Positions 36,785-58,740 of a stretch of DNA of 58,740 bases are shown piece by piece (positions within the stretch are counted from its first letter, which is position 1; every line of letters starts with the position of its first letter). Source of the stretch: Clostridiales bacterium (GTDB lineage: Bacteria; Bacillota; Clostridia; Lachnospirales; Lachnospiraceae). A model generated the notes under the pieces. That model worked only from the letters and a program-made list of their open reading frames with translations. It made no database searches and was not told where the DNA came from. The stretch covers positions 1 through 58,740 of the forward strand of contig JAJQCD010000031.1 in the NCBI GenBank assembly GCA_021202925.1, written 5' to 3'. Position numbers and translations under genes: made by a program.

Positions 36785-37150
36785 TTAAACGACAGAATAG
36801 CCTGCTTCTGTGAGAAAATGCAATGCTTTTTCAAAATTTTCTTTTTTAATCAGAACATAATCTGTATGAAATGTCGATATTGCAAAAATACTGATTTGGT
36901 GAGATGCAAGTATGCCGGAAATGTCTGATAAAATGCCTGTTAACGAAAAATCCAACTTTCCCTCTACCCGAAAGGCATTCCACCCATCGTCTCGTTCTGT
37001 TGTATTTACAGGAGTATCTGTTGCGATACACACCAAAGATATTTCATCATCGGTTTTTCCGATGAAGTAGAAATCGTTGTTTAAATTCAGTTCCTTTGCA
37101 GAAGGAACCTTGCATATCGTAAATTCATGGGCAAGTCTTTTCAGTTTCAT
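36785..37150 (-). CDS. ACT domain-containing protein
   Basis: This 121-residue protein has an N-terminal ACT-like half and a C-terminal ACT domain (VEGKLDFSLTGILSDISGILASHQISIFAISTFHTDYVLI). It resembles CASTOR/ACT_7-type proteins that bind amino acids or related small ligands. The ligand is unknown. It lies 45 bp downstream of the LysR gene and is probably the last gene of the PrpD1-LysR-ACT unit. Confidence 0.82.
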   Translation of the reverse strand: MKLKRLAHEFTICKVPSAKELNLNNDFYFIGKTDDEISLVCIATDTPVNTTERDDGWNAFRVEGKLDFSLTGILSDISGILASHQISIFAISTFHTDYVLIKKENFEKALHFLTEAGYSVV

Positions 37151-37195
37151 GGAACAACCTCCGTTTATCCAAAAAACAGTTATTTTGAGCCTGGA

Positions 37196-38134
37196 TCAAC
37201 ACAGATAGTCAGGGAAAGAAAATCCTTCTTCGCATAAAATGTGAAACAGTTCCCTGGAAGGCCGCGTGAGCGTATCAATATTTTCATCATAAATAACAGC
37301 CCATTGCCAGAATGGATTGTATCGTTGCTCTATCTGATAGTAATTGACAGCCCCGCCGGTCAGATATGTTTTTGAGAAACTGTCGGGAATCAGGGAAATC
37401 CCCATCCCGTTTGCCACCAGCCGGATCACGGTTTCGATATTGTGAAACTCCAGTTTGATGTTGTAAGTGCTTTCCGTCTGTTTTAGAATACGGTCGGCGG
37501 CAAGCCGGGTTTTCTTGGAATGATCGGTCAGGATGATGTCCTGACCGTTTAATGCTTCAAGAGAGAGGAAAGGAATGTCGGCTCCGTCTTTCTTATAAGC
37601 CAGTTGATTAACGGGATGATCTTTGGGAACGGCAAAATAAACTGGTTCCTCGTAGAAAACCTGATAACGTATATTGAGATTTTTCAGGGGGAGGCAGAGG
37701 ATGGCGATATCCAATACTCCCGACATAACTTTTTCCTCCAGAAGAAAACTGCTTTCCTCCAGAATATCAATCTGGATATTCGGGTAACGCCGGTTAAAAC
37801 GGCAGAGGAGATCCGGAAGAACCAGGGCACCCAGACGTTCGGCAATTCCAAGCTTTAACACGCCTTTGCGCATATGATTCAATTCACAGAATTCAATTTC
37901 CACATCGTTATACAGCTTAAGAATCTGTTGTGCTTTACTGATAAAGCACTGACCTGCGTGGGTGAGAAGAAGGCCGGAAGGACGGCGGATGAACAACGGT
38001 TCTCCAAGCTCTTCTTCCACACGCGTCAGACATTTGCTCAGTGCCGGTTGCGTCAGAAACAGTTTCTGTGACGCTTTTGCCATGCTTCCGGTTTCGGCAA
38101 TGGCCAGTATTCGTTCAATATCATTTCGGTTCAT
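37196..38134 (-). CDS. LysR family regulator 1
   Basis: This 312-residue LysR regulator has an N-terminal winged helix (MNRNDIERILAIAETGSMAKASQKLFLTQPALSKCL) and a periplasmic-binding-like effector domain (about 90-300). The start at 38134 follows AAAAGGAGCCGCC; an extension to 38191 has no site. It is downstream of the MmgE/PrpD gene in the same direction. A likely target is the divergent region at 39607-39849 that serves PrpD1 and the SLC13 permease, where three AACTTTTTG-type sites occur. Confidence 0.9.
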   Translation of the reverse strand: MNRNDIERILAIAETGSMAKASQKLFLTQPALSKCLTRVEEELGEPLFIRRPSGLLLTHAGQCFISKAQQILKLYNDVEIEFCELNHMRKGVLKLGIAERLGALVLPDLLCRFNRRYPNIQIDILEESSFLLEEKVMSGVLDIAILCLPLKNLNIRYQVFYEEPVYFAVPKDHPVNQLAYKKDGADIPFLSLEALNGQDIILTDHSKKTRLAADRILKQTESTYNIKLEFHNIETVIRLVANGMGISLIPDSFSKTYLTGGAVNYYQIEQRYNPFWQWAVIYDENIDTLTRPSRELFHILCEEGFSFPDYLC

Positions 38135-38217
38135 GGCGGCTCCTTTTATTTGAATAAAAAATTTCTGTAGGCTATAGCATGATTGTATCACAAAATACTG
38201 GCTGTCGGAAATAAATT

Positions 38218-39606
38218 TTAAAAGGCCAGAGACGGAAGGCTGTTCCTGTGATCCAGATCGGTGATAGAACTGAATATCTCAGAGGTCAGATCGGAGTCAA
38301 GCTCTGTGCAGCAGGAGTTTGCTTTGCGCAGAAGCTGCTCCCTGGTTAGCGGGGAGGAGACACTTCCGGATGCGTCAGCAATTTCCTGTTGAAAGGTTTG
38401 GCCGTTTGCTAAAGTGACTGTCATGTTGCAGCCCCAGTGAGAGGGATATCTGGCGGTGAAGGATTCCATGGGTTCTACGGTAACTTTTTTTGTTAATTCC
38501 TGTCGTTGTTCTGTATTGATCCGGGAAATTTCAAAGTCACTCAATCCGACGCTGCCGTTGAGAAAGGCACAGGCAGTTGTATAAGGGGTAGAAAATTTTG
38601 CCTCTGTAGGAATCTGCGGATGTCTGCTTCCATCTGAAAGAGCGCACTGTTTCCAGCCGACCAGGTAGGTATCAATGTGGACGTTTTCAATTTGTTCCGG
38701 ATCAATATGATATTGTTCCCTCAGTGTCAAAGCAGCGTCGATAGCGCAATGAGTGCTCCGACAGCAGGGATATGGCTTTTTATCTACATTCAGGATTTCC
38801 CAGGTCTTGCCGAGATCCCGGTCAACCTGGGAATAATCGAAATGATCGGACATCATGGGAAAGATCCCGCCGTCTTCCGCATCCAGAATATACCGTGTCC
38901 CTTTCATCCCTCCCTGAACGAGCAGGCATGCATCCAGCCCGTTGGCGGCTGCCCGCCCGGGATGAAGGATTTTGTTGGTAGCCCCGTCGGTTAAAAATGC
39001 CCAGGTGGAGCAGGACTGGGTTCCTGCCAGGCCAAAGGCTGATGTCATCTGTTCCGCAGAGAAATGTAAGAGTTTTCCGCAGGCGGCAGCGGCTCCGAAC
39101 GTGCCGGCAGTACCGGTCACATGCCAGCCTTTATTACGATGCGCAGAGACGCCTAGCCCCATGCCGATTCGAGACATGGTTTCATACCCACAGACAACAG
39201 CTTCCAGAAAATCCTGGCCGGATTTACCGAGAAACTGGCAGAGAGACCATGCGGCGGGAATGACGACAGTTCCGATATGGGTCTTGGAGCCAGTATGGAC
39301 ATCATCCAGTTCCATACTGTGAGACAGCATGCCATTGAGCAATACGGCAGTCCTCAGCGGTGCCTGTTTTGCGGTTCCCCATACAGGAATACCGGCTCTT
39401 ACCGGAGAAGAAGTCGTTGCGTCTGTGATTCCTTCGTATGTAAGAAGCGTATCCATGATATTTGTGAAGAATGGATTGTTAGCTGCGCCCAAAGCCTGAG
39501 ATATGGTATCGAGCGTACAGGACCTGGCAGCTTCTTTTACTTCCTGAGGGAAATCTTCCCACCGTGCATCAGCGATAAATGTTGACAGATTTTCTAACTG
39601 ATTCAT
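38218..39606 (-). CDS. MmgE/PrpD family protein 1
   Basis: This 462-residue MmgE/PrpD member is all-helical with a small lid domain. Family segments are LLNGMLSHSMELDDVHTGSKTHIGTVVIPAAWS, SAHRNKGWHVTGTAGTFGA, KPYPCCRSTHCAIDAAL and RYPSHWGCNMTV. The family includes 2-methylcitrate dehydratase PrpD, cis-aconitate decarboxylase and iminodisuccinate epimerase, so the reaction could be dehydration, decarboxylation or epimerisation of a tri- or dicarboxylate. A paralogue is at 55656. It is divergent from the SLC13 permease, which probably supplies its substrate. Confidence 0.9.
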   Translation of the reverse strand: MNQLENLSTFIADARWEDFPQEVKEAARSCTLDTISQALGAANNPFFTNIMDTLLTYEGITDATTSSPVRAGIPVWGTAKQAPLRTAVLLNGMLSHSMELDDVHTGSKTHIGTVVIPAAWSLCQFLGKSGQDFLEAVVCGYETMSRIGMGLGVSAHRNKGWHVTGTAGTFGAAAACGKLLHFSAEQMTSAFGLAGTQSCSTWAFLTDGATNKILHPGRAAANGLDACLLVQGGMKGTRYILDAEDGGIFPMMSDHFDYSQVDRDLGKTWEILNVDKKPYPCCRSTHCAIDAALTLREQYHIDPEQIENVHIDTYLVGWKQCALSDGSRHPQIPTEAKFSTPYTTACAFLNGSVGLSDFEISRINTEQRQELTKKVTVEPMESFTARYPSHWGCNMTVTLANGQTFQQEIADASGSVSSPLTREQLLRKANSCCTELDSDLTSEIFSSITDLDHRNSLPSLAF

Positions 39607-39671
39607 AGTATTATACCTCCGATTTCATTTTTCTTGTGCCTTAATTATATGGGCAAAAATTCGGCTTGCAT

Positions 39672-39747
39672 AATTGCAAAAAGTTGGAAGACATCTAACT
39701 TTTTGTTAATTATGAATGGTTATAACCGTATTAACTTTTTGCAAATT
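39672..39747. promoter_or_regulatory. Three copies of an AACTTTTTGCAAATT-type operator
   Basis: Site A (39672-39685, AATTGCAAAAAGTT, inverted), site B (39697-39711, AACTTTTTGTTAATT) and site C (39733-39747, AACTTTTTGCAAATT) share one half-site. A and B form an inverted repeat around 11 bp; B and C are direct, 36 bp apart. The palindrome GGTTATAACC (39718-39727) sits between B and C. The site is central in the 243-bp region between PrpD1 and the SLC13 gene. Confidence 0.6.
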
Positions 39748-39849
39748 GTGTAAAGTAACGAGATACGATATACTGGAGGTATCAAAACTGTACAGGACAT
39801 TGATTGAGACAAAACGAAATATCAAAAATACGGGTAGGAGGAATTTGAA

Positions 39850-41130
39850 GTGGAACAGATGGCTGTATTGGTAATTCTGGTGATTCTGGCTGCGATAGTG
39901 TTGTTTGTTACGGAGTGGCTCCCATTACCGGTGACTGCGATGGGCGTTGCGGTGTGTTTTTATCTGATTGGAGCGATTGATGCATCGACTGCGCTGAAAT
40001 CATTTTCCAGTTCGACGACGATGATCATTGCAGCGATGGCGATTATCGGCGAGGCAGTGTTTCGAACAGGAGGAGCGGATAAAATCGGTCATCTCCTGAC
40101 AAAGGTATCAAAAGGCGAGAGACAGTTGATGTTTGCGATTGTAATGTTTTCCGGAATTATGTCCGGGTTCCTGTCCAATACAGGTGCGGCGGCACTTCTG
40201 ATTGCGCTGATCCTTGGCATGTGTGCTTCTACAGGAATGAAGCGTTCAAAACTGATGTATCCGGTTATTGTGGGGTGCTGCTTTGGCGGCGGCATTACTA
40301 TAGTAGGAACAACTTCGGGTCCCTTTCTTAGGGAAACGCTGGAGAACCTTGGTATCGGCGAGACCATGAGCTTTTTTGAATTTGCTCCGTTGTCGTTGCT
40401 GCTTCTGCTTGTCTCAGCATTATATATGGCGACGATCGGTTATAAGCTCCTTCCGGATCAGCCGGCAAATGAGAGCAGTTATCACGACAGTACGGGTGGA
40501 GAGAAGGATTTTTCTGACATTCCGAAATGGAAGACTACGCTGAGCCTGTGCCTGATGGTAGGAACCTTTCTGGGGATGATTTTTGAGGATCAGATCGGGA
40601 TTCCGTTGCATTTTATTGCGATCATCGGTGCGATGATTGCGGTAGGTGCCCGTTGTATTACCGTGAAGGAAGCTTCTCATGCGATTCCGGTCAGTGGTAT
40701 TATCATTTATGCAGCAATGGTTCCGGTGGCGGAAGCCATGACGAATTCCGGCGCGGCGGATTTGATTGCGGATGGAGCTTTAAAGGTTTTGGGAAACGTG
40801 GGGAGTCCGGTGCTGATTTTGTGTCTGATATTCCTGATTATCACACCGCTTACCAATTTCATGTCCAATGCAGCGACGATTATCCTGTTTACGCCAATTG
40901 CTTTGATTGTGGCGGAGACGCTTGGGATAGGACCGAAAGCGATTTTAATTGCGGTACGTTTCGCGGCTTCCATAGCAGTGGCAACTCCGGTGGCGATGCC
41001 GGCAAATTCCATGGCGGTGGAACCGGGCGGTTACCGGTTTATTGACTATCTGAAGCCGGGACTTCCGTTGACTTTAATTTGTGTAGTAGTTTCGATTGTG
41101 TATATTGCGGTTGCTTATCCGTTGAGTTGA
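39850..41130 (+). CDS. SLC13/DASS-type anion permease
   Basis: This 426-residue membrane protein of the ion-transporter superfamily (SLC13/ArsB-like) has about eleven helices. Marker segments are FSSSTTMIIAAMAIIGEA, SGFLSNTGAAALLIAL and, in the second half, FMSNAATIILFTPIALIVAE, equivalent to the SNT and SNAT substrate and sodium motifs. The family takes up di- and tricarboxylates or sulfate with sodium. The start is GTG 39850, 8 bp behind AGGAGG; ATG 39859 is too far away. It is divergent from MmgE/PrpD 1. Confidence 0.85.
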   Translation: MEQMAVLVILVILAAIVLFVTEWLPLPVTAMGVAVCFYLIGAIDASTALKSFSSSTTMIIAAMAIIGEAVFRTGGADKIGHLLTKVSKGERQLMFAIVMFSGIMSGFLSNTGAAALLIALILGMCASTGMKRSKLMYPVIVGCCFGGGITIVGTTSGPFLRETLENLGIGETMSFFEFAPLSLLLLLVSALYMATIGYKLLPDQPANESSYHDSTGGEKDFSDIPKWKTTLSLCLMVGTFLGMIFEDQIGIPLHFIAIIGAMIAVGARCITVKEASHAIPVSGIIIYAAMVPVAEAMTNSGAADLIADGALKVLGNVGSPVLILCLIFLIITPLTNFMSNAATIILFTPIALIVAETLGIGPKAILIAVRFAASIAVATPVAMPANSMAVEPGGYRFIDYLKPGLPLTLICVVVSIVYIAVAYPLS

Positions 41131-41144
41131 TTGTAATTAAGAAC

Positions 41145-41214: not shown

Positions 41215-41216
41215 GG

Positions 41217-41257: not shown

Positions 41258-41288
41258 TATGAGAACATCTTTTTTTATATATGAAATG

Positions 41289-42158
41289 TTATTTTTGCAT
41301 TTTCCCTGCGTATTCAAGTGCGTAACTGATGAAATTTTCTGCTTCCGGAGAAGAACCGGAGGCGGGGCAGAAAATCCAGGTGTTGCGGGTCAGCGGCGTC
41401 TGGTCCTTATGGTAGAGTGGATAGACATACTCCGGATAATTTTTCATATAGTCCCGCACAAAAAAGAAGCTGTAGCCGAGTCCTTTTAAAACCATCTCTC
41501 GGCAGATATCTGCGTGCTTGACGGTGAGACCGCTGGGGAAGGGGGTGACATAGTGTTCAAACCACCAGTTTTCAAGGATCTGGCGGCCATATTTGTCGAG
41601 TGGATAGGTGATATAGGGATAGGAAGAGAGCCGTGACATATCCAGCGGGGTGGTGCTGGCAAGGTAGACCTGCTGGCTTTCAAAGTGGAGCCGGCGGCCG
41701 TTAAAGGGAATATCGCCGAAAGCGATCGCGAAGTCGAGTTCTCCTCGTTCCACCTGTCGGCACAACGGGCTGCTTAAGCTGGTTGTAATATCAAAATGGA
41801 TGCCCGGATGTAACTGTTGGTAATACAGCAGGAGATCAGGGAGAACAAAGCGAGTGAAGGAGTTCGAGGCGCCGATATGCAGGGTGGTAACCGGTGTGTG
41901 CTTGGATTCACTCAGATGCTGATGGATCTCGTCCATGACGGTGAGGATCTGGCCTGCTTTGATGGCAAGATAATCGCCCTCCGGTGTGAAGTCGACGCCG
42001 TGTTTGCCGCGGATGGCTATGGTAACGCCAAATTCTTCCTCAATGAGCTTCAGCCGTTTGGTCAGAGTTGGCTGGGTAATATAGAGCTGTTCTGCGGTGC
42101 GCGTGATATTCCGGCATTGATAAAGGGTCTGCAAGATGATCCAGTCGCTGGTTTTCAT
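41289..42158 (-). CDS. LysR family regulator 2
   Basis: This 289-residue LysR regulator has a winged helix (MKTSDWIILQTLYQCRNITRTAEQLYITQPTLTKRLKLIEE) and an effector domain. The ATG at 42158 follows CAGGAGAAAACGCC. It is divergent from the hydratase 2-PrpF1 unit across a region with a T-N11-A box (ATTC-N7-GAAT), so it probably activates that unit in response to its substrate. Confidence 0.9.
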   Translation of the reverse strand: MKTSDWIILQTLYQCRNITRTAEQLYITQPTLTKRLKLIEEEFGVTIAIRGKHGVDFTPEGDYLAIKAGQILTVMDEIHQHLSESKHTPVTTLHIGASNSFTRFVLPDLLLYYQQLHPGIHFDITTSLSSPLCRQVERGELDFAIAFGDIPFNGRRLHFESQQVYLASTTPLDMSRLSSYPYITYPLDKYGRQILENWWFEHYVTPFPSGLTVKHADICREMVLKGLGYSFFFVRDYMKNYPEYVYPLYHKDQTPLTRNTWIFCPASGSSPEAENFISYALEYAGKMQK

Positions 42159-42181
42159 GGCGTTTTCTCCTGTGATTAAAA

Positions 42182-42198
42182 CATTCAATTTTGGAATG
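42182..42198. promoter_or_regulatory. LysR-type box CATTC-N7-GAATG
   Basis: CATTCAATTTTGGAATG is an interrupted palindrome with the T-N11-A pattern of LysR binding sites. It starts 24 bp upstream of the LysR 2 start codon in the divergent region. Confidence 0.5.
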
Positions 42199-42331: not shown

Positions 42332-42556
42332 ATGAACGAAATTATGGCGGCACAGGAGAAATTCGCGGAACTGATCCGGTCTGAGTATGAGCGGATTGAG
42401 CGAATGAAAGCAGATCAGGAAGTCAAGGCCTTCTCGAAGCTGGACAAGATTGTGGTGGGAATCCTGCCGGGGGATGGCATCGGGCCGATTATTATGAAGC
42501 AGCGGAGACAGGATCTGAGCGGAGATCAAAGGAGAAAGACGGAATGGTTACATTAA
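42332..42556 (+). pseudogene. N-terminal stump of an isocitrate/isopropylmalate-type dehydrogenase
   Basis: AAGGAGG precedes ATG 42332. The first 55 residues match the N-terminus of the complete enzyme at 57099: AAQEKFAELIRSEYERI against NAQKKFGALIRSEEARI, then KLDKIVVGILPGDGIGPIIM against KLDSIIVGIMPGDGIGPILM. At about 42497 the similarity stops and unrelated codons lead to a stop inside the hydratase 2 start. A deletion of roughly 1 kb has removed the catalytic body. It suggests that a dehydrogenase-hydratase-PrpF order once existed here. Confidence 0.8.
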
Positions 42557-44817
42557 CAGATCATGGGATGATCCTTTGTGAGGACAGTACATTCAGCCGA
42601 TGGGAAAATGAGGAGCAGGCAAACCGGGGAAAGAGCCGAACGATGGCATACCGGATCCTGCAGGCGCATAATCAGAGCGGCGATATGCGGCAGTTGAAGC
42701 TTAAGTTTGACGCTCTGGTGTCTCCGGATAATAACTACGTTAATATCCTGCAGACGGCCCGTGCGAGCGGGATTCGGAAATTTCCGGTTCCTTATGTGCT
42801 TTCTAACTGCCATCATACGCTGTGCGCGGTGGGAGGCACGATCAATGAGGACGACCATGTCTTTGGCCTGGGAAACGCGAAAAAGTATGGAGGGATCTTT
42901 GTACCGCCCTATCGGGCCGTGCTTCATCAGTATATGCGGGAGATGATGGCCGGTTGCGGAAAGATGATCCTGGGTTCGGACAGTCACACCCGATATGGCG
43001 CGGTGGGGACCCTGGGGGTCGGTGAGGGAGGCGGAGAGGTCGCGAAACAGCTGCTGGGACGAACCTATGACCTGGCATACCCGCCCGTCATTGCCGTGCG
43101 GCTGACCGGGAGCCCCCGTCCCGGCGTCGGTCCGCAGGATGTGGCGCTGGCACTGGTCGGAGCGACTTTTCAGAATAATTTTAATAAAAATAAGATCCTG
43201 GAGTTTGTCGGTTCGGGGATTGCGAACCTGAGTATGGAATACCGTATGGGTATCGATGTGATGACTACGGAGAGCGCCGTGCTTTCCAGCATCTGGTGTA
43301 CGGACGAGAAGACAGAGGAGTATCTGGCGGAACATGGCAGAGCAGAGGATTATCAGAGACTGATGCCGGAGACAGGGGCGTATTATGACGGCCTGATTGA
43401 GATCGACCTGTCGAAAGTGGAGTGTATGATCGCGCTCCCGTTTCATCCGAGCAACGCCATGCCGATCCGTGAGTTTAAAGAACGGCTGCCGGAGATTGTG
43501 GCGCAGATCGAGGAAGTGGGACAGAAGATCAAGGGAGAGAAAGGGGAAGCCTTTTCGATCATGTCCCATATCAGGGGCGGAGAGTTTTACGCAGATCAGG
43601 CGCTGGTAAGCGGCTGCAGCGGCGGAATGTTTGAAAATATCGTCGCGATGGCGGATATCCTGAAAGGATACGGGATACCGGGGAATGCTTTAAATCTTGG
43701 CGTCAATCCGGCCAGTCTGCCGGTCATGGCAGATCTGATGAAGCAGGGGATCGCCGGGGAGCTGGCGGTATGCGGAGTGACGCTGCGTCCGGCGATCTGC
43801 GGACCATGTTTTGGTGTGACAGATGTGCCGGCGAATAATCAGATCAGTATTCGCCATATGACCCGGAATTATCCGAATCGTGAGGGTTCCAAACCAGGCC
43901 AGGGACAGATGGCGGCCGCATGCCTGATGGACGCGCGCTCCATCGCGGCGACCGTGCGAAACGGCGGACGACTGACCGCGGCGACGGAACTGGACGTCGA
44001 GTACCGTGAGCTTCGCCATCATTTCGATCCTGCCATTTACCAGAATCAGGTGTATGATAATTTTGGCCGGGGAGATGAAAATGAGAGTCCGGTAATGGGA
44101 CCCAACATTGCCGACTGGCCAGAGATGGCGCCGCTGAAAAAACATTTGCTGTTAAAGGTGACCGGTTCCTATCACGGATCGGTAACGACAGATGAGCTGA
44201 TCCCGTCGGGAGAGGCGTCGTCCTTCCGCTCCAACCCTGAGAAAATTTCAGAGTATACGATGATCAGCCGCGATCCGGAGTATGTGGGACGCGCGAAGGT
44301 GGTGCGCAGTCTGGAGCGGCAGAGATGCGCGGGAGACAGAAGGACAGATGATGCGCTGCTGAACCGTATGCTGGACGCGCTGGCTCAGAGAACGGGCTGC
44401 GGCGCGGATGAGATTACATTGGGAAGTGTGATGGTCAGCGATCAGATCGGGGACGGTTCCTCGAGAGAACAGGCCGCAAGCTGCCAGAAAGTGCTGGGAG
44501 GATTCGCGAATCTCGCAAATGAATACGCGACAAAACGTTACCGTTCGAATCTGATTAACTGGGGGATCCTGCCGCTTCGCACGACAGAAAAACTGGATCT
44601 GCCAAATGGAACCTGGCTTTTTGTGGAAAATATTGCCGGTCAGGTCAGAGACGGAGTGCAGGAGATGGAAGTGGAGATATTGGCAGGGGAGACTGCCAAT
44701 GTGATTCAGACGATTCCCTGTACATTGGATCAACTAACGGAGGAAGAGAGGAATATCCTGATGTCAGGATGTCTGATTAATTATTATCGGGGACAGAGGA
44801 AAACGAAACCGGAATGA
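42544..44817 (+). CDS. Aconitase-family hydratase 2
   Basis: This 757-residue hydratase has the same domain order as hydratase 1. The Fe-S ligands are Cys in LVSGCSGGMFEN and CGPC in AICGPCFGVTD. Also conserved are [62 protein letters not shown] and [13 protein letters not shown]. It presumably hydrates or dehydrates a tricarboxylate such as an aconitate. The start at 42544 follows AAAGGAGAAAGACGGA, at the scar of the truncated dehydrogenase. PrpF1 follows after 80 bp. Confidence 0.9.
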   Translation: MVTLTDHGMILCEDSTFSRWENEEQANRGKSRTMAYRILQAHNQSGDMRQLKLKFDALVSPDNNYVNILQTARASGIRKFPVPYVLSNCHHTLCAVGGTINEDDHVFGLGNAKKYGGIFVPPYRAVLHQYMREMMAGCGKMILGSDSHTRYGAVGTLGVGEGGGEVAKQLLGRTYDLAYPPVIAVRLTGSPRPGVGPQDVALALVGATFQNNFNKNKILEFVGSGIANLSMEYRMGIDVMTTESAVLSSIWCTDEKTEEYLAEHGRAEDYQRLMPETGAYYDGLIEIDLSKVECMIALPFHPSNAMPIREFKERLPEIVAQIEEVGQKIKGEKGEAFSIMSHIRGGEFYADQALVSGCSGGMFENIVAMADILKGYGIPGNALNLGVNPASLPVMADLMKQGIAGELAVCGVTLRPAICGPCFGVTDVPANNQISIRHMTRNYPNREGSKPGQGQMAAACLMDARSIAATVRNGGRLTAATELDVEYRELRHHFDPAIYQNQVYDNFGRGDENESPVMGPNIADWPEMAPLKKHLLLKVTGSYHGSVTTDELIPSGEASSFRSNPEKISEYTMISRDPEYVGRAKVVRSLERQRCAGDRRTDDALLNRMLDALAQRTGCGADEITLGSVMVSDQIGDGSSREQAASCQKVLGGFANLANEYATKRYRSNLINWGILPLRTTEKLDLPNGTWLFVENIAGQVRDGVQEMEVEILAGETANVIQTIPCTLDQLTEEERNILMSGCLINYYRGQRKTKPE

Positions 44818-46040: not shown

Positions 46041-46076
46041 TGACGGCGATGTACGAAAAAGTGAAGAACAGGAGGA

Positions 46077-46263: not shown

Positions 46264-46307
46264 GAAAATGGTAATTCTAAAACCACACAGAGGAGGACTA
46301 ATTGTTG

Positions 46308-47434: not shown

Positions 47435-47578
47435 CTCATTTGCCGGATAGAGTTCGGATGTGCTGTCTGCGAGTTCGATGCCAATGCAGGGGGATCCGGG
47501 ATGCACAGGGAGCAGATTGATGGCATGAAATTTGCTTTTCATTCTGATATCTTTAAATATCGCAAAGGAGTGGTGAAC

Positions 47579-48173: not shown

Positions 48174-48189
48174 TTGGCATGTGATTTGC
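48174..48189 (+). promoter_or_regulatory. Sigma-54 promoter of PrpF2-hydratase 3
   Basis: TTGGCATGTGATTTGC matches the -24/-12 consensus (TTGGCACG-N4-TTGC) at 15 of 16 positions counting N, with exact GG-to-GC spacing and a T-rich start. It is 58 bp before the PrpF2 start codon and should be driven by the PrpR-type activator at 51606-53633. Confidence 0.75.
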
Positions 48190-48247
48190 TTTATTCTGAA
48201 ATAACGGAATGTTTGAACCGATTATAACGAAAAAGGAGAAAGAAATC

Positions 48248-49384: not shown

Positions 49385-49401
49385 CAGAAAGAGGGGAGCT
49401 T

Positions 49402-51624: not shown

Positions 51625-53633
51625 TACTCCTCCAGCTTTTTCCAGAGCGTGGAACGGGCAATACCCAGGTCTTCGGCGGTCTTTTTCCGGTTCCCGTTGT
51701 TGCGTTCCAGACGGGATAAAATGACGCTGCGCTCGATTTCCTCCAGAGTTCGGTCGTCTGTTTTGTCGCATTCTGCGCAAGGAGCTGCCGGTGACAAATC
51801 CTGCGGTCTGCTATCGCATGCTGCAGAGGTTTCTGTGCGAAAATCGGACACAGCGGATTCCAGGCTGGATGCAGGCGGCTCGCAGGGGAGAGGTGTGACT
51901 GCGGTGATGGAATCGAAACATTCCGTGAGCGGAGTCGCCTGCCCCATGTTCAGGATGACATAGCGGTGTATGACATTGCTCAGCTCGCGGACATTTCCCG
52001 GCCAGGAACGGTTCTCCAGAAGAAGATATTCCGGATCGGAGAGCGTCGGAGTGTCCGCGCGATACTGGTCGCTGTAGTAACGGAGGTAATGGAGTGTAAG
52101 TGCACGGATATCGTCCTGTCTTTCATTCAGAGAGGGAACCGACAGACGCAGCGTATTCAGGCGGTAGTACAGATCCGTGCGAAATTTCTCTTCTGCGATC
52201 AGCTCCGTCAGATTGCGGTTACTTGCCGCGATGACCCGGACATCGACATAGATGTTTCTTTGCGAACCCAGCCGTCGGATTTCTTTTTCCTGCAGAACAC
52301 GCAGAAAGGCGCTTTGCAATTCGATGGGCATGGAATTGATTTCGTCCAGAAATATCGTACCCTTGTGGGCCAGTTCAAAGAGTCCGCGTTTCCCGCCTTT
52401 TCTGGCGCCGGAGAAAGCGCCTTCTTCATAACCGAACAGCTCACTTTCCAGCAGAGTAGCCGGAATGGCGGCGCAGTTTACGGCGACAAACGGTTCATTC
52501 TTTCGTGAACTGGCGTTGTGAATGCTTTGCACCAGAAGCTCTTTGCCGGTTCCGCTTTCTCCGGTGATCAGAATATTGGCATCTGTCATGGCGTAAAACT
52601 GCGCTTTGTCGAGAAGCTGCTGCATGACGCTGCTTTCGGCGATGATATCAGGAAAGTGATATTTGGCAAGGAAACCATCGCTTCGCAGTTCAGTCCGGAC
52701 TCGTTTCTCCTGATCCTGAATGTCCTTTACGCTGCGCAGGACAAGAATCATCCGGCGCATGGTTTCCGTGTTAAGATAGGTCTTTCTGACATAATAATTT
52801 CGATTCTGAATCTTCAGTACCTCATCGTTGCTGTTTTCATCGGTAAGAAACCGACGGATGTTTTCGGACAGTTTGACAATCGACAAATCCAGGATACGTT
52901 TTCCGATCATGTTTGATTCTGCGACACGAAAGACATCGCAGGCAACTTTGTTTGCCATGATGACGATGCCATTTTCAACGGTCAGGACGCCCTCCTGAAT
53001 CGAGGCGACCGCCTCGTTAAAGGAACGGAGCTGTATTTTTTCCATCTGCCTGGCCTGGATGATGGAAACAGCCTGGCGAAGCGCTTTATGCAGGGCCATA
53101 CTGCCGGAATCGAGCGCAATGACAGGGAGGCCGATTTGTTTGCCGGTACGCCAGGCCATTCGCGTACCGACCATTGCGTCCAGCCCGTCGTCCAGCCCCT
53201 GTCGCACCTGACGCCGGATGTCCTCACCGGATCGAAATGGATAGAGCTTCAGTTCCGGGAGCCTGAGCAGCTTTTTGGCCATGGTCAGGTTGAAACTGAC
53301 AGCAAATTCTTCGAACATCAGAATGCCGATGCGGGAACCGTAGCGAGACGCCTCCTGGATGCAGGCGAGGAGCGACAGTTCTTCCGCTTCGGCCCGGACC
53401 GAAGCCACTTCCGGGAAATACTGCTCCATCATGTTTGCAATGGCGCCACGGCTGATGATGACGTCGGGGCGTCCATTATCGGAAAAATGAGTTCGGAGAT
53501 GTTCAATCAGAGCAAATTCTGCGACGTCCCACTCGATGATGGTCGGATTGATCTGCATGTAATTGCAGATATCCCGGACCTCTTCTTTCATGCCCGGATA
53601 GAGCGCGATTACAATCAGTTCTTTTTCGTACAT
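51606..53633 (-). CDS. PrpR-type sigma-54-dependent activator
   Basis: This 675-residue enhancer-binding protein has a PrpR_N ligand domain (about 1-195), a PAS-like domain (about 203-305), and an AAA+ domain with Walker A GESGTGKE (358-365), sigma-54 contact loop GAFSGA (405-410) and Walker B FLDE (428-431). It ends in a Fis-type helix-turn-helix (about 630-675, NNGNRKKTAEDLGIARSTLW). E. coli PrpR binds 2-methylcitrate through the same N-domain, so a tricarboxylate ligand is plausible here. The Thr of GAFTGA is replaced by Ser, an accepted variant. It lies between the two sigma-54 promoters it probably serves. The start at 53633 follows AAGGTGGTG. Confidence 0.92.
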   Translation of the reverse strand: MYEKELIVIALYPGMKEEVRDICNYMQINPTIIEWDVAEFALIEHLRTHFSDNGRPDVIISRGAIANMMEQYFPEVASVRAEAEELSLLACIQEASRYGSRIGILMFEEFAVSFNLTMAKKLLRLPELKLYPFRSGEDIRRQVRQGLDDGLDAMVGTRMAWRTGKQIGLPVIALDSGSMALHKALRQAVSIIQARQMEKIQLRSFNEAVASIQEGVLTVENGIVIMANKVACDVFRVAESNMIGKRILDLSIVKLSENIRRFLTDENSNDEVLKIQNRNYYVRKTYLNTETMRRMILVLRSVKDIQDQEKRVRTELRSDGFLAKYHFPDIIAESSVMQQLLDKAQFYAMTDANILITGESGTGKELLVQSIHNASSRKNEPFVAVNCAAIPATLLESELFGYEEGAFSGARKGGKRGLFELAHKGTIFLDEINSMPIELQSAFLRVLQEKEIRRLGSQRNIYVDVRVIAASNRNLTELIAEEKFRTDLYYRLNTLRLSVPSLNERQDDIRALTLHYLRYYSDQYRADTPTLSDPEYLLLENRSWPGNVRELSNVIHRYVILNMGQATPLTECFDSITAVTPLPCEPPASSLESAVSDFRTETSAACDSRPQDLSPAAPCAECDKTDDRTLEEIERSVILSRLERNNGNRKKTAEDLGIARSTLWKKLEEYQHPAR

Positions 53634-53657
53634 TGTGGCACCACCTTTTTTGAAAAG

Positions 53658-53674
53658 TGTTTGAAATGGAAACA
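53658..53674. promoter_or_regulatory. Palindrome TGTTTGAAATGGAAACA, candidate activator site
   Basis: TGTTT and AAACA arms flank a 7-bp centre. The site lies 25 bp before the activator start codon and about 125 bp upstream of the sigma-54 promoter at 53796. It is well placed for both autoregulation and enhancer function. Confidence 0.45.
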
Positions 53675-53795
53675 TTCACTTCTGTTCATTATAGGATAAA
53701 TCCGGTTCCTGTGCAAGAAAAAATATCAGACAGGGGAAACCGTGGAGCCCTGGAAAATATATAAATAATGGTTGTCCGGGATTGAAGCAGAAAAA

Positions 53796-53811
53796 TTGGC
53801 ACGATAATTGC
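53796..53811 (+). promoter_or_regulatory. Sigma-54 promoter of the DAACS-RidA-PrpD-dehydrogenase operon
   Basis: TTGGCACGATAATTGC fits the -24/-12 consensus perfectly and is followed by TTTT. The start codon of the transporter is 51 bp further on. Confidence 0.88.
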
Positions 53812-53862
53812 TTTTAAACTGGTTATCAAGAAAAACCATAACGGATAAAAGGAGAGAAGCAA

Positions 53863-55101
53863 ATGAAAAAGAAGAAAATGAGTGATGTTACCAAGATATT
53901 GATTGCGATGGTAGCAGGATCGGCGGTCGGCCTGATTGTTGGCGAACCGGCTTCGGCGATTGGGTTCATCGGTGATATCTGGCTGAATATCATGAAGATG
54001 TTTCTGGTCTGCATCGTGGTCTGCATGCTGGTCAAGGGTATCAGCAGTATGGACAGCCCGGAAGCATTGGGACGGATTGGAGTCAAGTTTATTCTGTTTT
54101 ATGTGTTCACAACGTTGTGCGCGAGTGCAATTGGCGTTGGAATGACGTTGCTGTTAAAGCCTGGCGTTGGATTTACATACGAAGCGGCGGATGTGTCAAA
54201 TGTGACAATCAACGAGATGCCAAGTATTGCGCAATTTTTCAAGAGCATGTTTTCCACTAATATCTGGAAGACATTCGCGGATGCAGATATGATGCAGGTC
54301 GTTATTCTTTCCTGCTTTATCGGTGTGGCGATCGTTCTGCTCCCGCCGGAGAAGAGAGAGCCGGTTCGCAACTGGTTCTGGTCCATGACCGACCTGATCA
54401 CTTCCCTGATCAGCATTGCCCTGAAACTGGCTCCGATCGGTGTTTTCTGCCTGATGGCTTCTTCGCTCGGACAGTATGGCGTGGGCCTGCTGGTAACGAT
54501 TGCCAAAATTCTCGGTGTCTTCTATCTTTGTTGCATCCTGCATCTGGTTGTTATTTACTGCATGCTTTTATGGGGCTTCACGGGGATTAATCCGGCTGCT
54601 TTCCTGAAGAAGGCGTTTCCGACGTTCGCGACGGCGGTCAGCACCTGCAGCAGTGGTGCGGTTATCCCGGTCAGCATGGATGTGACGACGAAAAATTTTG
54701 AGTGCGACGATGCGGTGGCGGGTCTTGGTATTCCGCTTGGCGGAACGATTAACAAGGATGGTGTGGCGATTCTGTGCGGCGTGGTTCTTCTGTTCAGCGG
54801 ACAGGCCATGGGTATTCCGCTGGGACCGCAGCAGATCATCAATCTGTTATTTGTGACGATCATGGTGACAAGCGCCGGTTCCGGTGTGCCGGGCGGCGGC
54901 CTGATGAATCTGATGATCGTTGCGACGGCGATTGGAATGCCATTGGATATCATTATGATGGTTGGCGGATTTTACCGGCTGTTTGACATGGGAACCACAT
55001 CCATGAACTGCCTGGGCGATGTGTCTGCGACGATAATCATCGACCGGCTCGAAAAGCGGCGCGCGGCAAAGCTGGAAAAGAAGGGACGTGCGGCAGCATA
55101 G
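53863..55101 (+). CDS. DAACS-family dicarboxylate/amino acid:cation symporter
   Basis: This 412-residue glutamate-transporter-homologue has eight helices and two re-entrant hairpins. The first hairpin carries TAVSTCSSGAVIPVSM. TM7 carries GGTINKDGVAIL where the canonical form is NMDG, and the second hairpin carries TSAGSGVPGGGLMNL. The Met-to-Lys change in the NMDG sodium motif (NKDG) is notable and may alter ion coupling or fit a more acidic substrate. It is the first gene of the sigma-54 operon, so it probably imports the substrate of that pathway. AAAGGAGAGAAGCA precedes the ATG. Confidence 0.88.
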   Translation: MKKKKMSDVTKILIAMVAGSAVGLIVGEPASAIGFIGDIWLNIMKMFLVCIVVCMLVKGISSMDSPEALGRIGVKFILFYVFTTLCASAIGVGMTLLLKPGVGFTYEAADVSNVTINEMPSIAQFFKSMFSTNIWKTFADADMMQVVILSCFIGVAIVLLPPEKREPVRNWFWSMTDLITSLISIALKLAPIGVFCLMASSLGQYGVGLLVTIAKILGVFYLCCILHLVVIYCMLLWGFTGINPAAFLKKAFPTFATAVSTCSSGAVIPVSMDVTTKNFECDDAVAGLGIPLGGTINKDGVAILCGVVLLFSGQAMGIPLGPQQIINLLFVTIMVTSAGSGVPGGGLMNLMIVATAIGMPLDIIMMVGGFYRLFDMGTTSMNCLGDVSATIIIDRLEKRRAAKLEKKGRAAA

Positions 55102-55201
55102 GACAGACCGGTGTGTGCCGACCGGAATGAAAGAATGAGACCGTCAGGTTCGACCTGATGCGATAAAAAATGATTATATGAAAAATTGGAGGAAAAATAA
55201 A

Positions 55202-55570
55202 ATGGAGATTATCAAAGCACCCCATCCGGCCAGCGGCCATTATTCAGCGGGAATCATCAGCAACGGTATGGTTTATCTGTCCGGGCAGAGTTCGGTTGAC
55301 CCGTTTACCCATCAGGTACCGGAAGGTGGTATGGCGGCGGAGATGACCATGTCCCTGACCCGCATTGAAAATATCCTGAAAAACGCGGGAATCGACCGGA
55401 CACATATTATCATGTGCCGCGTCTATATAACAGATATGGCGAAGTGGGATGAGGCAAATGCCGCTTATGCAGAATTCTTTGGCGACCACAAGCCGGCCCG
55501 TGCCATTTATGAGGTCAGGAGAACCCATCACATGGCGCAGATTGAGATTGAAGCAGTTGCGGAGCTGTAA
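55202..55570 (+). CDS. RidA family protein
   Basis: This 122-residue RidA/YjgF protein has the signature Arg100 in KPARAIYEV and Glu118 in AQIEIEAVA, the deaminase/imine-hydrolase pocket. The GMVYLSGQSSVDP segment is typical. RidA hydrolyses reactive enamines/imines or otherwise handles unstable keto/enamine intermediates. Its place between a carboxylate transporter and MmgE/PrpD suggests it processes a pathway intermediate; an imino-carboxylate is possible. The start at 55202 follows TTGGAGGAAAAATAAA. Confidence 0.88.
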   Translation: MEIIKAPHPASGHYSAGIISNGMVYLSGQSSVDPFTHQVPEGGMAAEMTMSLTRIENILKNAGIDRTHIIMCRVYITDMAKWDEANAAYAEFFGDHKPARAIYEVRRTHHMAQIEIEAVAEL

Positions 55571-55655
55571 GGAAGATTTCAGACAGCTGCACAGCAGGCA
55601 GGTATGAAAATTCCGGCAAACGGCCGGAACGTAATTGTGGAAAGGGACTGGAAAA

Positions 55656-57017
55656 ATGGAAGAGAAGAAAAGCGAACTTCGGAAACTGGCGGAATTTGTG
55701 CACGGACTGGAGTGGGAACAGATCCCGGAGGAAGTTCGCCAGGCTGTCGTCGATCGGGTGCTGGATTTGGTGAGCGTGGCGGCGGGAGCATCGGACGACC
55801 CGATGATCCGCCGGATCGCGGATACGTTTGAGCAGTTCGGCGGGACAGGAAAGGTTCACGTCTGGGGCTGTGAGAAAACCTGGCCTTTGCCGGTTGCCGC
55901 ATTTCTGGACGAAATGCTGGCACATACGCTGGAGCTGGACGACGTCCATTCCGGGTCAAAAACGCATGGCAGCGCCAGTCTGATCCCGGCGGCATGGACC
56001 TGCGCGGAGTATCTGGGAAAAACCGGGAAAGAATTTCTGACTGCGGTTGTGGCCGGATATGAGACGGTTGCCAGAATCGGAATGGCGCTTGGCGTTTCGG
56101 CGCACCGGAACCGCGGCTGGCATGCCACCTCGACCTGTGGTGTGTTTGGCTGTGCAGCAGCCTGTGCGAAGCTGTTGGAACTGGATACGGAGGGCATTCT
56201 TTCCTCGCTGGGAATGGCCGGGACGCAGAGCAGTGGTGTGTGGGCATTCCTGGGGGATGGGAGCAACTGCAAAGTGCTGCACACGGGCAGAGCGGCGTCA
56301 AATGGGCTGGAAGCGGTGTTCCTGGCTGCGAGCGGGATGACCGGACCGGAACATATTATGGAAGGGCAGGATGGCGGACTTTTGTATGCGATGTCGGACG
56401 GAGGCGATGCTTCCCGGATTTCCGCAGGGCTTGGCACGGAATGGGAAATCCTGAAGATGGACATGAAGCCGTACCCGTGTTGCCGCAGCACCCATTGTGC
56501 GGTCGACTGCGCACTGGCGTTGCGTGAACGGATTGATCCGGAACAGATCCGTGAGATTGACATCAGCACATATCTGGTTGGATATAAACAATGCGCTGTG
56601 AGTGAGGGCTGCCTGCATCCGAAGCAGCCGATGGATGCAAAATTTTCTACCAGGTACTGTGTGGCTGCGGCATTGCTGTATGGCAGGGTATCGATGAAGG
56701 AATTTGAGCCGCAGGTGGTGATGGATGCGAAGGTTCAGACGCTTCTGGAAAAAGTGAAGGTACGGGAGGATGAACGGTTTACTTCGCAGTATCCGAGCCA
56801 TTGGGGGTGCGAGATGGAAATCGTGATGAAGAATGGTGCTGTGTTCCGCTATGAGGTGAGCGATCCGTCCGGCAGTGTTGTGCGCCCATTGACAAGAAAA
56901 CAGGCGATGGAGAAAGCGGAAAATTTTCTTCAGACAGCATATCCGGAGCGGGAAAAAGTCGTTATCGGGCAGATTCTGAACCTGGAATCTGCCGTCCGGA
57001 TGCCGGTACTCGGTTGA
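55656..57017 (+). CDS. MmgE/PrpD family protein 2
   Basis: This 453-residue paralogue of the protein at 38218 has the same marker segments: LDEMLAHTLELDDVHSGSKTHGSASLIPAAWT, SAHRNRGWHATSTCGVFGCAAA, KPYPCCRSTHCAVDCAL and YPSHWGCEMEI. The reaction is one of dehydration, decarboxylation or epimerisation in this family. It is third in the sigma-54 operon, followed by the dehydrogenase after about 80 bp. ATG 55656 is chosen because the homologue begins at the same place; an in-frame GTG at 55635 is possible. Confidence 0.9.
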   Translation: MEEKKSELRKLAEFVHGLEWEQIPEEVRQAVVDRVLDLVSVAAGASDDPMIRRIADTFEQFGGTGKVHVWGCEKTWPLPVAAFLDEMLAHTLELDDVHSGSKTHGSASLIPAAWTCAEYLGKTGKEFLTAVVAGYETVARIGMALGVSAHRNRGWHATSTCGVFGCAAACAKLLELDTEGILSSLGMAGTQSSGVWAFLGDGSNCKVLHTGRAASNGLEAVFLAASGMTGPEHIMEGQDGGLLYAMSDGGDASRISAGLGTEWEILKMDMKPYPCCRSTHCAVDCALALRERIDPEQIREIDISTYLVGYKQCAVSEGCLHPKQPMDAKFSTRYCVAAALLYGRVSMKEFEPQVVMDAKVQTLLEKVKVREDERFTSQYPSHWGCEMEIVMKNGAVFRYEVSDPSGSVVRPLTRKQAMEKAENFLQTAYPEREKVVIGQILNLESAVRMPVLG

Positions 57018-57098
57018 CCGGGGTCAATTCCGGTGCAGATGGAAACAGAAATCCGGAAACGAAATAGTGATAGAGTGATAGAAGGGAGACGGAATATT

Positions 57099-58277
57099 GT
57101 GAAACAGTTTTTGGAGCAGGATATCGAGAACGCACAGAAGAAGTTTGGCGCGTTGATCCGGAGCGAAGAAGCGCGGATCAGCCGAATGGAAGAGAGTGGA
57201 GAACCGCTTGATTTTACAAAACTGGATTCGATTATTGTGGGCATTATGCCAGGCGACGGGATCGGCCCGATTTTAATGCCGCTGGCTTTGCAGACGATGA
57301 AGGAGCTGGTCGGAGAAGAGATCACGTCGGGGAAGATTGTTCTGAAAAACATTGAAGGAATGACCATTGAGAACCGGGTGGTAAAGCTGAACAGCCTGCC
57401 TGAAGAATGCCTGGAAGAAATCAAAACGTGTCATGTGTTGTTAAAGGGGCCGATGATGACACCCAGGGCAGGCGACGGCCTGCCGAATCTGGTATCCGCG
57501 AATTCGATGTTACGGCGCAGCCTGGATCTGTACGCGGCGGTTCGGCCGATCGATATCAAAGAAAAGAATATTCACTGGACATTCTTCCGTGAAAATATTG
57601 AAGGAGAATATATCTGGGGGAACAAGGGAATACAGGTGGATGAGGATCTGGCTGTCGATTTTAAGGTGCAGACAAAGCGCGGTACGGAACGGCTTGCCCG
57701 CGCGGCGTTTGAACACGCCAGAAAGAACGGAAAAAAGAATGTGACGATCGTCACAAAGGCGAATATTGTCAAGCTGGTGGACGGCAATTTCATTGAAGCG
57801 GTGCGCCGGGTCGGTAAGGAATATCCGGATATCGAGATCCAGGAACGCCTGGTCGATGCGATGTGTGCGAAGATGCTGGATCCGGACTTTAATAAGGGGA
57901 TTGAGGTTGTTGTCCTGCCGAATCTTTACGGAGATATTGTAACGGATGTCGCAGCAGAGCATCAGGGTGGTCTGGGAACCGCATCCTCTTCCAATATTGG
58001 TGACCGGTACGCGCTTTTTGAGGCGATTCACGGAACCGGCCCGTATCTGATTGGGATCGGGAAAGGACACTGCGCGAATCCCTGCAGTCTGATTCGTGCC
58101 ATGGGGCAGATGCTGGTGCACATGGGCTATGCGGATCGCAATGCGTTGCTTGAACAGGCGCTGGATCTCTGTACGACCGGCGAGGGTGCGATGGAGGTCG
58201 GATTCCAGGAAGGGCAGCATACTGCGGCTGAGTTCACAGAGTATCTGATTGATACGATCCGGAAAATCAGAAAATAA
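57099..58277 (+). CDS. Isocitrate/isopropylmalate-type dehydrogenase
   Basis: This is a 392-residue beta-decarboxylating dehydrogenase. It contains GIMPGDGIGP, substrate-binding WTFFRENIEGEYIWG with the active-site Tyr, catalytic Lys in VTKANIVKLVDG, and the family signature NLYGDIVTDVAAEHQGGLG. It oxidises a 2-hydroxy-acid with a 3-carboxyl group (isocitrate, isopropylmalate, tartrate-like) to a 2-oxoacid plus CO2. An N-terminal extension of about 45 residues, shared with the stump at 42332, is unusual for isocitrate dehydrogenase. GTG 57099 behind GGGAG aligns with the stump's start; an earlier ATG at 57039 has no good site. Confidence 0.88.
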   Translation: MKQFLEQDIENAQKKFGALIRSEEARISRMEESGEPLDFTKLDSIIVGIMPGDGIGPILMPLALQTMKELVGEEITSGKIVLKNIEGMTIENRVVKLNSLPEECLEEIKTCHVLLKGPMMTPRAGDGLPNLVSANSMLRRSLDLYAAVRPIDIKEKNIHWTFFRENIEGEYIWGNKGIQVDEDLAVDFKVQTKRGTERLARAAFEHARKNGKKNVTIVTKANIVKLVDGNFIEAVRRVGKEYPDIEIQERLVDAMCAKMLDPDFNKGIEVVVLPNLYGDIVTDVAAEHQGGLGTASSSNIGDRYALFEAIHGTGPYLIGIGKGHCANPCSLIRAMGQMLVHMGYADRNALLEQALDLCTTGEGAMEVGFQEGQHTAAEFTEYLIDTIRKIRK

Positions 58278-58335
58278 CAAATGCTTTGATTGAACCATAG
58301 CAAAAAGAATATACCTGTCATAAGAAACCTTGTAT

Positions 58336-58364
58336 TTGACCTATGGCTCCTCGGATAGTATAGT
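58336..58364 (+). promoter_or_regulatory. Sigma-A promoter of the citrate lyase operon
   Basis: TTGACC (58336-58341) and TATAGT (58359-58364) have a 17-bp spacer. The spacer holds CTATGGCTCCTCGGATAG, an interrupted CTAT/ATAG palindrome that may bind a LysR-type regulator. Confidence 0.55.
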
Positions 58365-58409
58365 TAAATCATCAGAAAAGCTGAAATACTCACAGGAGGA
58401 GGCAAAGCA

Positions 58410-58715
58410 GTGGAAATCAAAAAATATGGAACAGCCGGAACGCTGGAATCCAGTGATGCGATGGTGACCGTGGAGCCGGTAGAAAAAGGAAGCGGAATCG
58501 ACTTCGAACTGGAGAGCGCCGTGATCCATCAGTACGGAAACAGCATTCGCAAGACCGTGCTCACGACGCTGGAGAATCTGGGCGTGGAGGATGTACGGAT
58601 CCGCGTTGTGGACAAGGGGGCGCTGGACTGCACGCTGAAAGCGCGTGTAGAGGCCGCTGTCTATCGCTCGTTGAATCAGATTGACCATATTCCGTGGGGA
58701 GGTGCCGTGCGATGA
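58410..58715 (+). CDS. citD: Citrate lyase acyl carrier protein (gamma subunit)
   Basis: This 101-residue CitD has its start MEIKKYGTAGTLESSDAMV, whose Ser is the attachment site for the phosphoribosyl-dephospho-CoA prosthetic group. It ends with EAAVYRSLNQIDHIPWG. It carries the acetyl group in the lyase complex that splits citrate, or a related citramalate-type acid, to acetate and an oxoacid. AGGAGGAGGCAAAGCA-type spacing precedes GTG 58410. Its stop overlaps the citE start (ATGA), so the genes are coupled. Confidence 0.93.
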   Translation: MEIKKYGTAGTLESSDAMVTVEPVEKGSGIDFELESAVIHQYGNSIRKTVLTTLENLGVEDVRIRVVDKGALDCTLKARVEAAVYRSLNQIDHIPWGGAVR

Positions 58716-58740
58716 GACCGGATAAGAATCGCCTGAGAAG
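58712..58740 (+). CDS. citE: Citrate lyase beta subunit start (partial)
   Basis: ATG at 58712 overlaps the citD stop and opens MRPDKNRLR before the window ends. The order citD-citE and the Lys/Arg-rich opening before the expected FVPGNNP segment support CitE; only about nine residues can be seen. Confidence 0.7.

Follow-up and report, generated by a model that had tools for sequence, protein, structure and literature searches.

The window analysed here is the complete contig JAJQCD010000031.1 (58,740 bases) from the 3.17-Mb genome (completeness 100) of a Clostridiales bacterium of the family Lachnospiraceae, assembly GCA_021202925.1, hereafter the host. From position 36,785 to the contig end, it contains an island of carboxylate genes. 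We interpret the island as a double gene set for the anaerobic use of plant-type tricarboxylic acids, which would pass through cis-aconitate, citrate, and isocitrate, and we give this interpretation an even chance. A preliminary description of the DNA had listed two PrpF genes, two MmgE/PrpD genes, three aconitase-family genes, an isocitrate dehydrogenase (IDH)-type gene, SLC13 and DAACS transporters, RidA, LysR regulators, and a PrpR-type activator, and family searches confirmed all of them in place.

The genes of the first set, preceded by a hydratase gene upstream of the island, were as follows:

30106..32382, plus strand: YbhJ1, PRK11413-family hydratase (NF008503, 1250 bits)
37196..38191, minus strand: LysR1 regulator (PF03466/PF00126)
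38218..39606, minus strand: PrpD1, MmgE/PrpD family (PF03972, 220 bits)
39850..41130, plus strand: DASS/CitMHS (SLC13-type) carboxylate transporter (PF03600, 223 bits)
41289..42188, minus strand: LysR2 regulator, divergent from YbhJ2 (family search)
42544..44817, plus strand: YbhJ2 hydratase, of a separate clade (NF008503, 1033 bits)
44898..46040, plus strand: PrpF1, PrpF-family isomerase (PF04303, 406 bits), with Lys73 and Cys107 equivalents

The second set, including its promoter-like sites, consisted of the following features:

47521..47536, plus strand: sigma-54 -24/-12-like site TGGCATGAAATTTGCT, upstream of the likely DUF1847 start
47579..48172, plus strand: DUF1847 protein (PF08901, 166 bits), its start moved from 47399 on domain position and ribosome-binding site
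48175..48190, plus strand: sigma-54-like site TGGCATGTGATTTGCT, upstream of PrpF2
48209..49384, plus strand: PrpF2 (PF04303, 438 bits), whose start may be 48248
49381..51624, plus strand: YbhJ3, strongly diverged hydratase (NF008503, 867 bits), overlapping the PrpF2 end
51606..53675, minus strand: PrpR-type sigma-54 activator (PF06506, PrpR_N, and PF00158)
53797..53812, plus strand: sigma-54-like site TGGCACGATAATTGCT, matching TGGCACN5TTGCW with 0 mismatches, upstream of the SDF gene
53863..55101, plus strand: SDF (DAACS) Na+/carboxylate symporter (PF00375, 334 bits)
55178..55570, plus strand: RidA-family protein (PF01042, 99.5 bits)
55635..57017, plus strand: PrpD2, MmgE/PrpD family (PF03972, 230 bits)
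57033..58277, plus strand: IDH-family protein, with the isocitrate signature and Tyr-Leu at the cofactor positions
58410..58715, plus strand: citD, citrate lyase acyl carrier protein, complete
58712..58740, plus strand: citE, first nine codons, ending with the contig

Each set contains one PrpD, one PrpF, one YbhJ-type hydratase, and one carboxylate transporter. Set 1 is arranged as LysR1-PrpD1 with DASS, and LysR2 with YbhJ2-PrpF1, its regulators being of the LysR type. Set 2 is arranged as DUF1847, PrpF2-YbhJ3, PrpR, and SDF-RidA-PrpD2-IDH-citDE. The paralogues share 44% (PrpF1/PrpF2), 48% (PrpD1/PrpD2), and 51% (YbhJ2/YbhJ3) identity, and YbhJ1 shares 46–52% identity with YbhJ2 and YbhJ3. 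The island had earlier been treated as one set, a view that gave way to two paralogous sets with different regulators. The PrpD1-DASS-LysR1 part of set 1 was conserved in another locus (L090), where the relatives adjoin each other at 62, 82, and 58% identity, respectively.

The citrate lyase end of set 2 is truncated. The preliminary description had named both citD and citE; citD is indeed complete, but citE was overstated, since the window is a whole contig that ends after nine of its codons. CitF had no match in the assembled host genome. In L022, where the IDH shares 91% identity with that of the window, the same order continues as IDH-citD-citE-citF with all three lyase genes present, and an assembly gap at the contig end is therefore likely.

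The three promoter-like sites were detected with the pattern TGGCAYN5TTGCW, based on the sigma-54 -24/-12 consensus. The window contains three matches where 0.12 would be expected, and 100 shuffles never gave as many; Y at position 6 was admitted only after the first hits had been inspected. The sites flank the PrpR-type activator gene on both sides and lie 42, 57, and 50 nt upstream of the DUF1847, PrpF2, and SDF start codons (ATG), each of which has a ribosome-binding site; the starts at 47579 (DUF1847) and 48248 (PrpF2) are revisions chosen after the first scan. Because these sites precede DUF1847, PrpF2-YbhJ3, and the transporter operon, set 2 may be one sigma-54 regulon under the PrpR-type activator. 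Among 25 other fetched loci, the pattern matched only in L010 and L068, both with a PrpR-type gene; in L010 it is a CoA-transferase gene, and not a PrpF gene, that begins at the site. No match was found in L069 (PrpR-type, 29–32%) or L055 (a 21% relative). A two-mismatch scan (18 hits, 28 expected) was uninformative, as was one alternative pattern, and the interval from PrpR to SDF showed no inverted repeat. DUF1847 genes recurred in other stretches with PrpF: those of L044 and L068 lie no more than 6 kb from it, and that of L045 lies at a distance of about 8 kb. The DUF1847 gene in the window has its own sigma-54-like site.

All three window hydratases scored above the curated YbhJ/PRK11413 cut-off of 641 bits (NF008503). 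They are not of the AcnD type, as the AcnD model gave 74 bits against a cut-off of 1420. YbhJ members over the cut-off were detected in 276 of 299 genomes of the host family, and a PRK07229-type aconitase in 6 of 120, three of which (G000, G033, and G114) also carried PrpF. The YbhJ family is far commoner here than the PRK07229 type, the other aconitase type searched for across the host family. The host genome contains three YbhJ genes, one PRK07229-type gene, and two LeuC-sized genes of the aconitase family. Citrate synthase was adjacent in 4 of 16 YbhJ neighbourhoods (L050–L065), which were the best-scoring matches and not a random sample, and two of these four also had an NAD-type IDH. Citrate lyase genes adjoin YbhJ in L005, L043, L050, and L070. 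YbhJ/PRK11413 proteins may be the principal aconitases of the host family, and YbhJ1 is probably a housekeeping aconitase of this near-universal type.

The YbhJ proteins were compared with pig aconitase at the 20 positions of its active-site set. Fourteen of these, namely Cys358, Cys421, and Cys424 of the Fe-S cluster and 11 others, were identical in all 35 YbhJ rows. Positions 72, 100, 170, 258, 446, and 643 differed in some or all rows, the alignment being uncertain at 99–101. As a control, 14 ordinary bacterial aconitases kept 16 of the 20 positions, including 258, 446, and 643. In the tree, YbhJ2 belongs to a clade of 12 (support 99/95) with nine PrpF-linked members, where 10 of the 12 come from loci selected by IDH. 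This clade uniformly has Pro72/Ser643 in pig numbering (the Ilyobacter row is incomplete at 72), and the housekeeping clade, including E. coli YbhJ, has His72/Ala643. Four PrpF-linked YbhJ proteins lie outside the YbhJ2 clade, namely those of L016, L073, E. coli, and Ilyobacter.

E. coli YbhJ is called catalytically inactive in one report (PMC4054840). Since YbhJ proteins keep the cysteines of the Fe-S cluster and most positions of the active site, and are far commoner in the host family than the other aconitase type tested, inactivity of the YbhJ family appears doubtful, though it is not disproved. An aconitase orthology group was present in 62 of 62 butyrivibrio genomes, and the available part of that study names no YbhJ-type gene (PMC4478896).

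PrpF1 and PrpF2 matched PF04303 over their full length and are members of the PrpF superfamily. The Lys73 and Cys107 equivalents were kept in 37 of 37 PrpF rows (E. coli YbhH counted twice). In the tree, PrpF1 was placed in its own clade of 15, apart from the Mii, PrpF, and YbhH references, and PrpF2 was likewise outside the Mii group. S. oneidensis PrpF is described as interconverting cis- and trans-aconitate (PMC5690661), and the Bacillus aconitate isomerases TarA/TbrA are described as members of the superfamily (PMC11495376).

PrpF genes were rare, occurring in 11 of the 299 family genomes (10 over cut-off) and in 7 of 391 genomes of the host class, with the host included in each. From these samples 19 PrpF-bearing stretches were drawn, and partners within 6 kb were counted by tblastn because maps based on open reading frames had missed genes (PrpF and YbhJ2 in L048, PrpD in L089). 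An aconitase-superfamily hydratase was present in 12 stretches and a scored carboxylate transporter in nine. Citrate lyase genes, PrpD, and IDH-family genes were present in three stretches each, two of the IDH-family genes being only 28–29% identical.

The window IDH and 21 of 22 called relatives contain S(A/V)NSxLR and RENIEGEY, the isocitrate-binding Ser/Asn/Arg and Arg-Glu-Asn...Tyr motifs; the exception is a 203-aa fragment. At the cofactor positions, the window IDH has Tyr-Leu and all 22 called relatives have Tyr-Leu or Phe-Leu, with a three-residue insertion. IDHs beside citrate synthase, including the host's own, have Asp-Ile at these positions. The window IDH carries neither the canonical NAD (Asp) nor the NADP (Lys-Tyr) motif.

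A total of 32 IDH loci were found, and seven (L028–L034, 27–34% identity) were excluded from the neighbour counts. The other 25 (at least 65% identity) were chosen by IDH, with neighbours taken from clustering except for the PrpF count. Their neighbours were a 2HCT transporter in 15, an aconitase in 14, YbhJ in 13, PrpF in nine, CitF in eight, and an RraA-like gene in eight. A plasmid DNA search with the IDH matched only Ilyobacter. IDH-aconitase-2HCT loci without PrpF exist, including a second host locus (L066 on contig C12) with the order aconitase-2HCT-hydrolase-IDH. Such loci, and citD after the window IDH, would suit an ordinary fermentation of citrate or isocitrate, with PrpF and PrpD as side activities or remnants. 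PrpF is rare in the family (11/299), yet in the island it is doubled, twice paired with YbhJ, and kept with its catalytic residues, and we consider this explanation rather unlikely.

The partners of the island genes were found together in other genomes. In L071, from another family of the class, citD-citE-citF-citX-aconitase-PrpF-exchanger-PEPCK run in one direction and are predicted to form a complete route from trans-aconitate to phosphoenolpyruvate. L046, which was located by PrpF and not by IDH, has the order YbhJ2-PrpF1-IDH-aconitase. L067, from another family, contains PrpD-PrpF-PrpF-YbhJ with a divergent permease and citC. L070 contains PrpD-YbhJ-citDEF-LarA-TctC without PrpF in the stretch, and PrpF lies elsewhere in that genome (L068 and L069). 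Plasmid pILYOP01 of Ilyobacter polytropus carries PrpF-IDH-YbhJ beside an aconitase and a 2HCT transporter. A chance grouping of the island genes was rejected, as the partners recur in other families. The YbhJ homologue of pILYOP01 (L037 22135 region, record 154146-156291) has no annotated gene, and its tblastn match was in two pieces.

The nearest solved relative of PrpD2 was iminodisuccinate (IDS) epimerase 2hp0 (6.9e-44), followed by the bacterial cis-aconitate decarboxylase 7bra (3e-35), and methylcitrate dehydratase was far behind. PrpD1 and PrpD2 share with the decarboxylase the residues His, His, Lys, His, and Tyr, which are taken as active-site positions. This Tyr is Phe in 4 of 12 relatives, including those of L067 and L070. 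Among 12 PrpD-bearing stretches, a scored transporter was found in nine and an aconitase-superfamily hydratase in six, and neither was found in L078, L079, and L089. PrpD2 relatives were rare (2 of 299 family genomes and 7 of 391 class genomes, host counted in each), and its 50% relatives accompany YbhJ/PrpF or YbhJ/citDEF. LarA-type racemase genes adjoin PrpD and tricarboxylate-transporter genes in L070 (2603-3892) and L076 (439-1743).

The 7bra match and the retained positions are also what would be expected if PrpD1 and PrpD2 were cis-aconitate decarboxylases that make or cycle itaconate. This function is improbable, as PrpD2 is overall nearer to the epimerase, YbhJ, PrpF, or citrate lyase genes accompany the PrpD relatives in L067 and L070, and no itaconyl-CoA genes were found among the scanned window genes. 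The epimerase-like PrpD2, with RidA and an amino-acid-type SDF carrier in the same operon, could instead indicate an aminopolycarboxylate pathway (iminodisuccinate or ethylenediaminedisuccinate-like). The decarboxylase Tyr of PrpD1 and PrpD2 is Ala in IDS epimerase, no C-N lyase was found among the scanned window genes, and the operon continues into IDH and citD; we regard such a pathway as very improbable indeed. PrpD is most likely an Fe-S-independent dehydratase that would feed an unsaturated acid to the PrpF and YbhJ steps.

In the tricarboxylate interpretation, the acid would be imported by DASS in set 1 and by the SDF transporter in set 2. The most likely substrate is trans-aconitate, or a mixture with isocitrate isomers. 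The PrpF isomerase would convert trans-aconitate to cis-aconitate, which the YbhJ-type [4Fe-4S] aconitase would hydrate to citrate or isocitrate. Citrate lyase (CitDEF) would cleave citrate to acetate and oxaloacetate; alternatively, the adjacent IDH would oxidise isocitrate to 2-oxoglutarate. Set 2 would be turned on by the PrpR-type activator with sigma-54, and set 1 would be under the LysR regulators. The proposed substrate, direction of flux, regulon, and PrpD role are read from gene families, gene order, residues, promoter-like sites, and partners. The fermentation of a tricarboxylate, proposed in the preliminary description, is upheld in part, as a probable aconitate-level route ending in citrate lyase and/or IDH, with which L071, L046, L067, and L070 agree.

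A more specific proposal is that PrpD-PrpF-YbhJ act as a single relay on the 'wrong' isocitrate isomers, a stereochemical clean-up of plant and fungal tricarboxylates of which E. coli ybhHIJ would be a remnant. PrpD would convert alloisocitrate to trans-aconitate by anti-elimination, PrpF would form cis-aconitate, and YbhJ would form the citrate or D-isocitrate used by citrate lyase or IDH. In L070 (perhaps also L076, a 3.6-kb contig), a LarA-type 2-hydroxyacid racemase stands beside PrpD and the stretch showed no PrpF; there, the PrpF step could give way to a C2 epimerisation. We put this relay forward as a speculation that is quite unlikely to be correct.

Several results weigh against the tricarboxylate interpretation. 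The only same-genus genome sampled (G172) had no PrpF match and matched the YbhJ model only weakly (best E 5.7e-25). YbhJ departs from pig aconitase at 6 of the 20 positions compared to 4 of 20 for ordinary bacterial aconitases, and its specificity may therefore be different. YbhJ3, an orphan on a long branch (2.8), has changes at positions 100, 359, 446, and 571, and may thus act on another substrate. With C at position 6 and one mismatch allowed, the sigma-54 scan gave three sites compared to 2.04 expected, which was not significant. PrpD2 relatives occurred in only 3 of 22 genomes carrying the IDH module (23 of the 25 IDH loci were taken for this check). Furthermore, no PrpD2, RidA, or SDF adjoined the IDH relatives, and the PrpD2/RidA/SDF order beside IDH did not recur elsewhere. 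Two of the 19 PrpF stretches (L074 and L075) had no scored partner.

The remaining contrary results concern PrpF and lead to a serious, if unlikely, rival. The best solved relative of PrpF1 was 3-methylitaconate isomerase 3g7k, with 282 bits compared to 267 for PrpF. PrpF was found with two-subunit LeuCD-type hydratases in L044, L045, L047, L049, L068, L069, and L072, and these loci belong or may belong to C6-dicarboxylate pathways. The L072 PrpF is nearly identical to 3-methylitaconate isomerase. L068 combines PrpR, a sigma-54 site, a MatC transporter, a LeuCD-type hydratase, a PrpB-type lyase, DUF1847, PrpF, and PrpD, and its PrpF groups with Mii. Because of such LeuCD-type neighbours and Mii-like PrpF proteins, PrpF by itself cannot fix the substrate. 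The rival would be a branched C5/C6 dicarboxylate pathway, where PrpF would serve as a delta-isomerase of the 3-methylitaconate type and dimethylmaleate, mesaconate, or a similar acid would be hydrated by the aconitase-family protein. However, PrpF1 and PrpF2 lie outside the Mii group, the window hydratases are of the single-chain aconitase type and not LeuCD, the genome has no PrpB-family lyase above cut-off, and the operon continues into an isocitrate-type IDH and citDE.

The preliminary description had also stated that PrpB and PrpC are missing from the window and that this is not the ordinary propionate pathway. The statement extends to the whole assembled genome. No PrpB-type lyase was found above cut-off (PEP_mutase family, one sub-cut-off hit of 20.2 bits), and the only citrate synthase lies beside an NAD-type IDH. 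For these reasons, and with no second citrate synthase, the 2-methylcitrate cycle was rejected. The AcnD/PrpF branch of this cycle also pairs an aconitase-family dehydratase with PrpF, as described in PMC5690661, but the window hydratases are YbhJ-type.

Parts of the proposed system are already known. The fermentation of trans-aconitate by Acidaminococcus fermentans was reportedly described by Haertel and Buckel in 1996. The genome paper gives the route as proceeding via citrate, oxaloacetate, and pyruvate, as predicted here, and lists aconitate hydratases, an isocitrate/isopropylmalate dehydrogenase, MatC carriers, and citrate lyase (PMC3035267). The word 'isomerase' is absent from its main text, whereas the window adds PrpF, PrpD, and a PrpR/sigma-54 layer. 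Bacillus tarRAB and tbrAB likewise combine a PrpF-superfamily aconitate isomerase with a transporter, plus a regulator for tar. The tar operon comprises only isomerase and transporter (PMC11495376), whereas the window adds aconitase-type hydratases, IDH, PrpD, and citrate lyase genes. E. coli ybhD-ybhHIJ (L038) shares the PrpF-family YbhH, the anion permease YbhI, the hydratase YbhJ, and a LysR regulator, but it has no adjoining PrpD, IDH, or citrate lyase, and its link to L-malate use in PMC9068703 is only tentative.

The overall route in A. fermentans and aconitate isomerisation by PrpF are known, and the combination with sigma-54 control may be new. In the open PMC literature, covered through listings and the starts of abstracts and so giving weak evidence of absence, no paper was recognised for this gene combination with sigma-54 control. 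For the fermentation of trans-aconitate by anaerobes, which is known physiologically, the island offers candidates for the genes of the isomerase step. The orphan E. coli ybhHIJ genes become testable with one substrate panel, and the results bear on the use of plant acids by anaerobes.

Two further genes lie within the island:

36785..37150, minus strand: ACT-domain protein (PF13840, 72.5 bits)
46302..47360, plus strand: gene without any Pfam match, between the two PrpF genes

The second gene, which we presume to resemble Rpn-type nucleases, is perhaps an insertion separating the two sets. Outside the island, an SbcC/RAD50-like ATPase gene followed by a gene for a JetD C-terminal-domain protein (5443-9943) suggests a Wadjet-type defence locus, and an AcrB-family RND transporter is encoded at 21922-25065 (PF00873, 651 bits).

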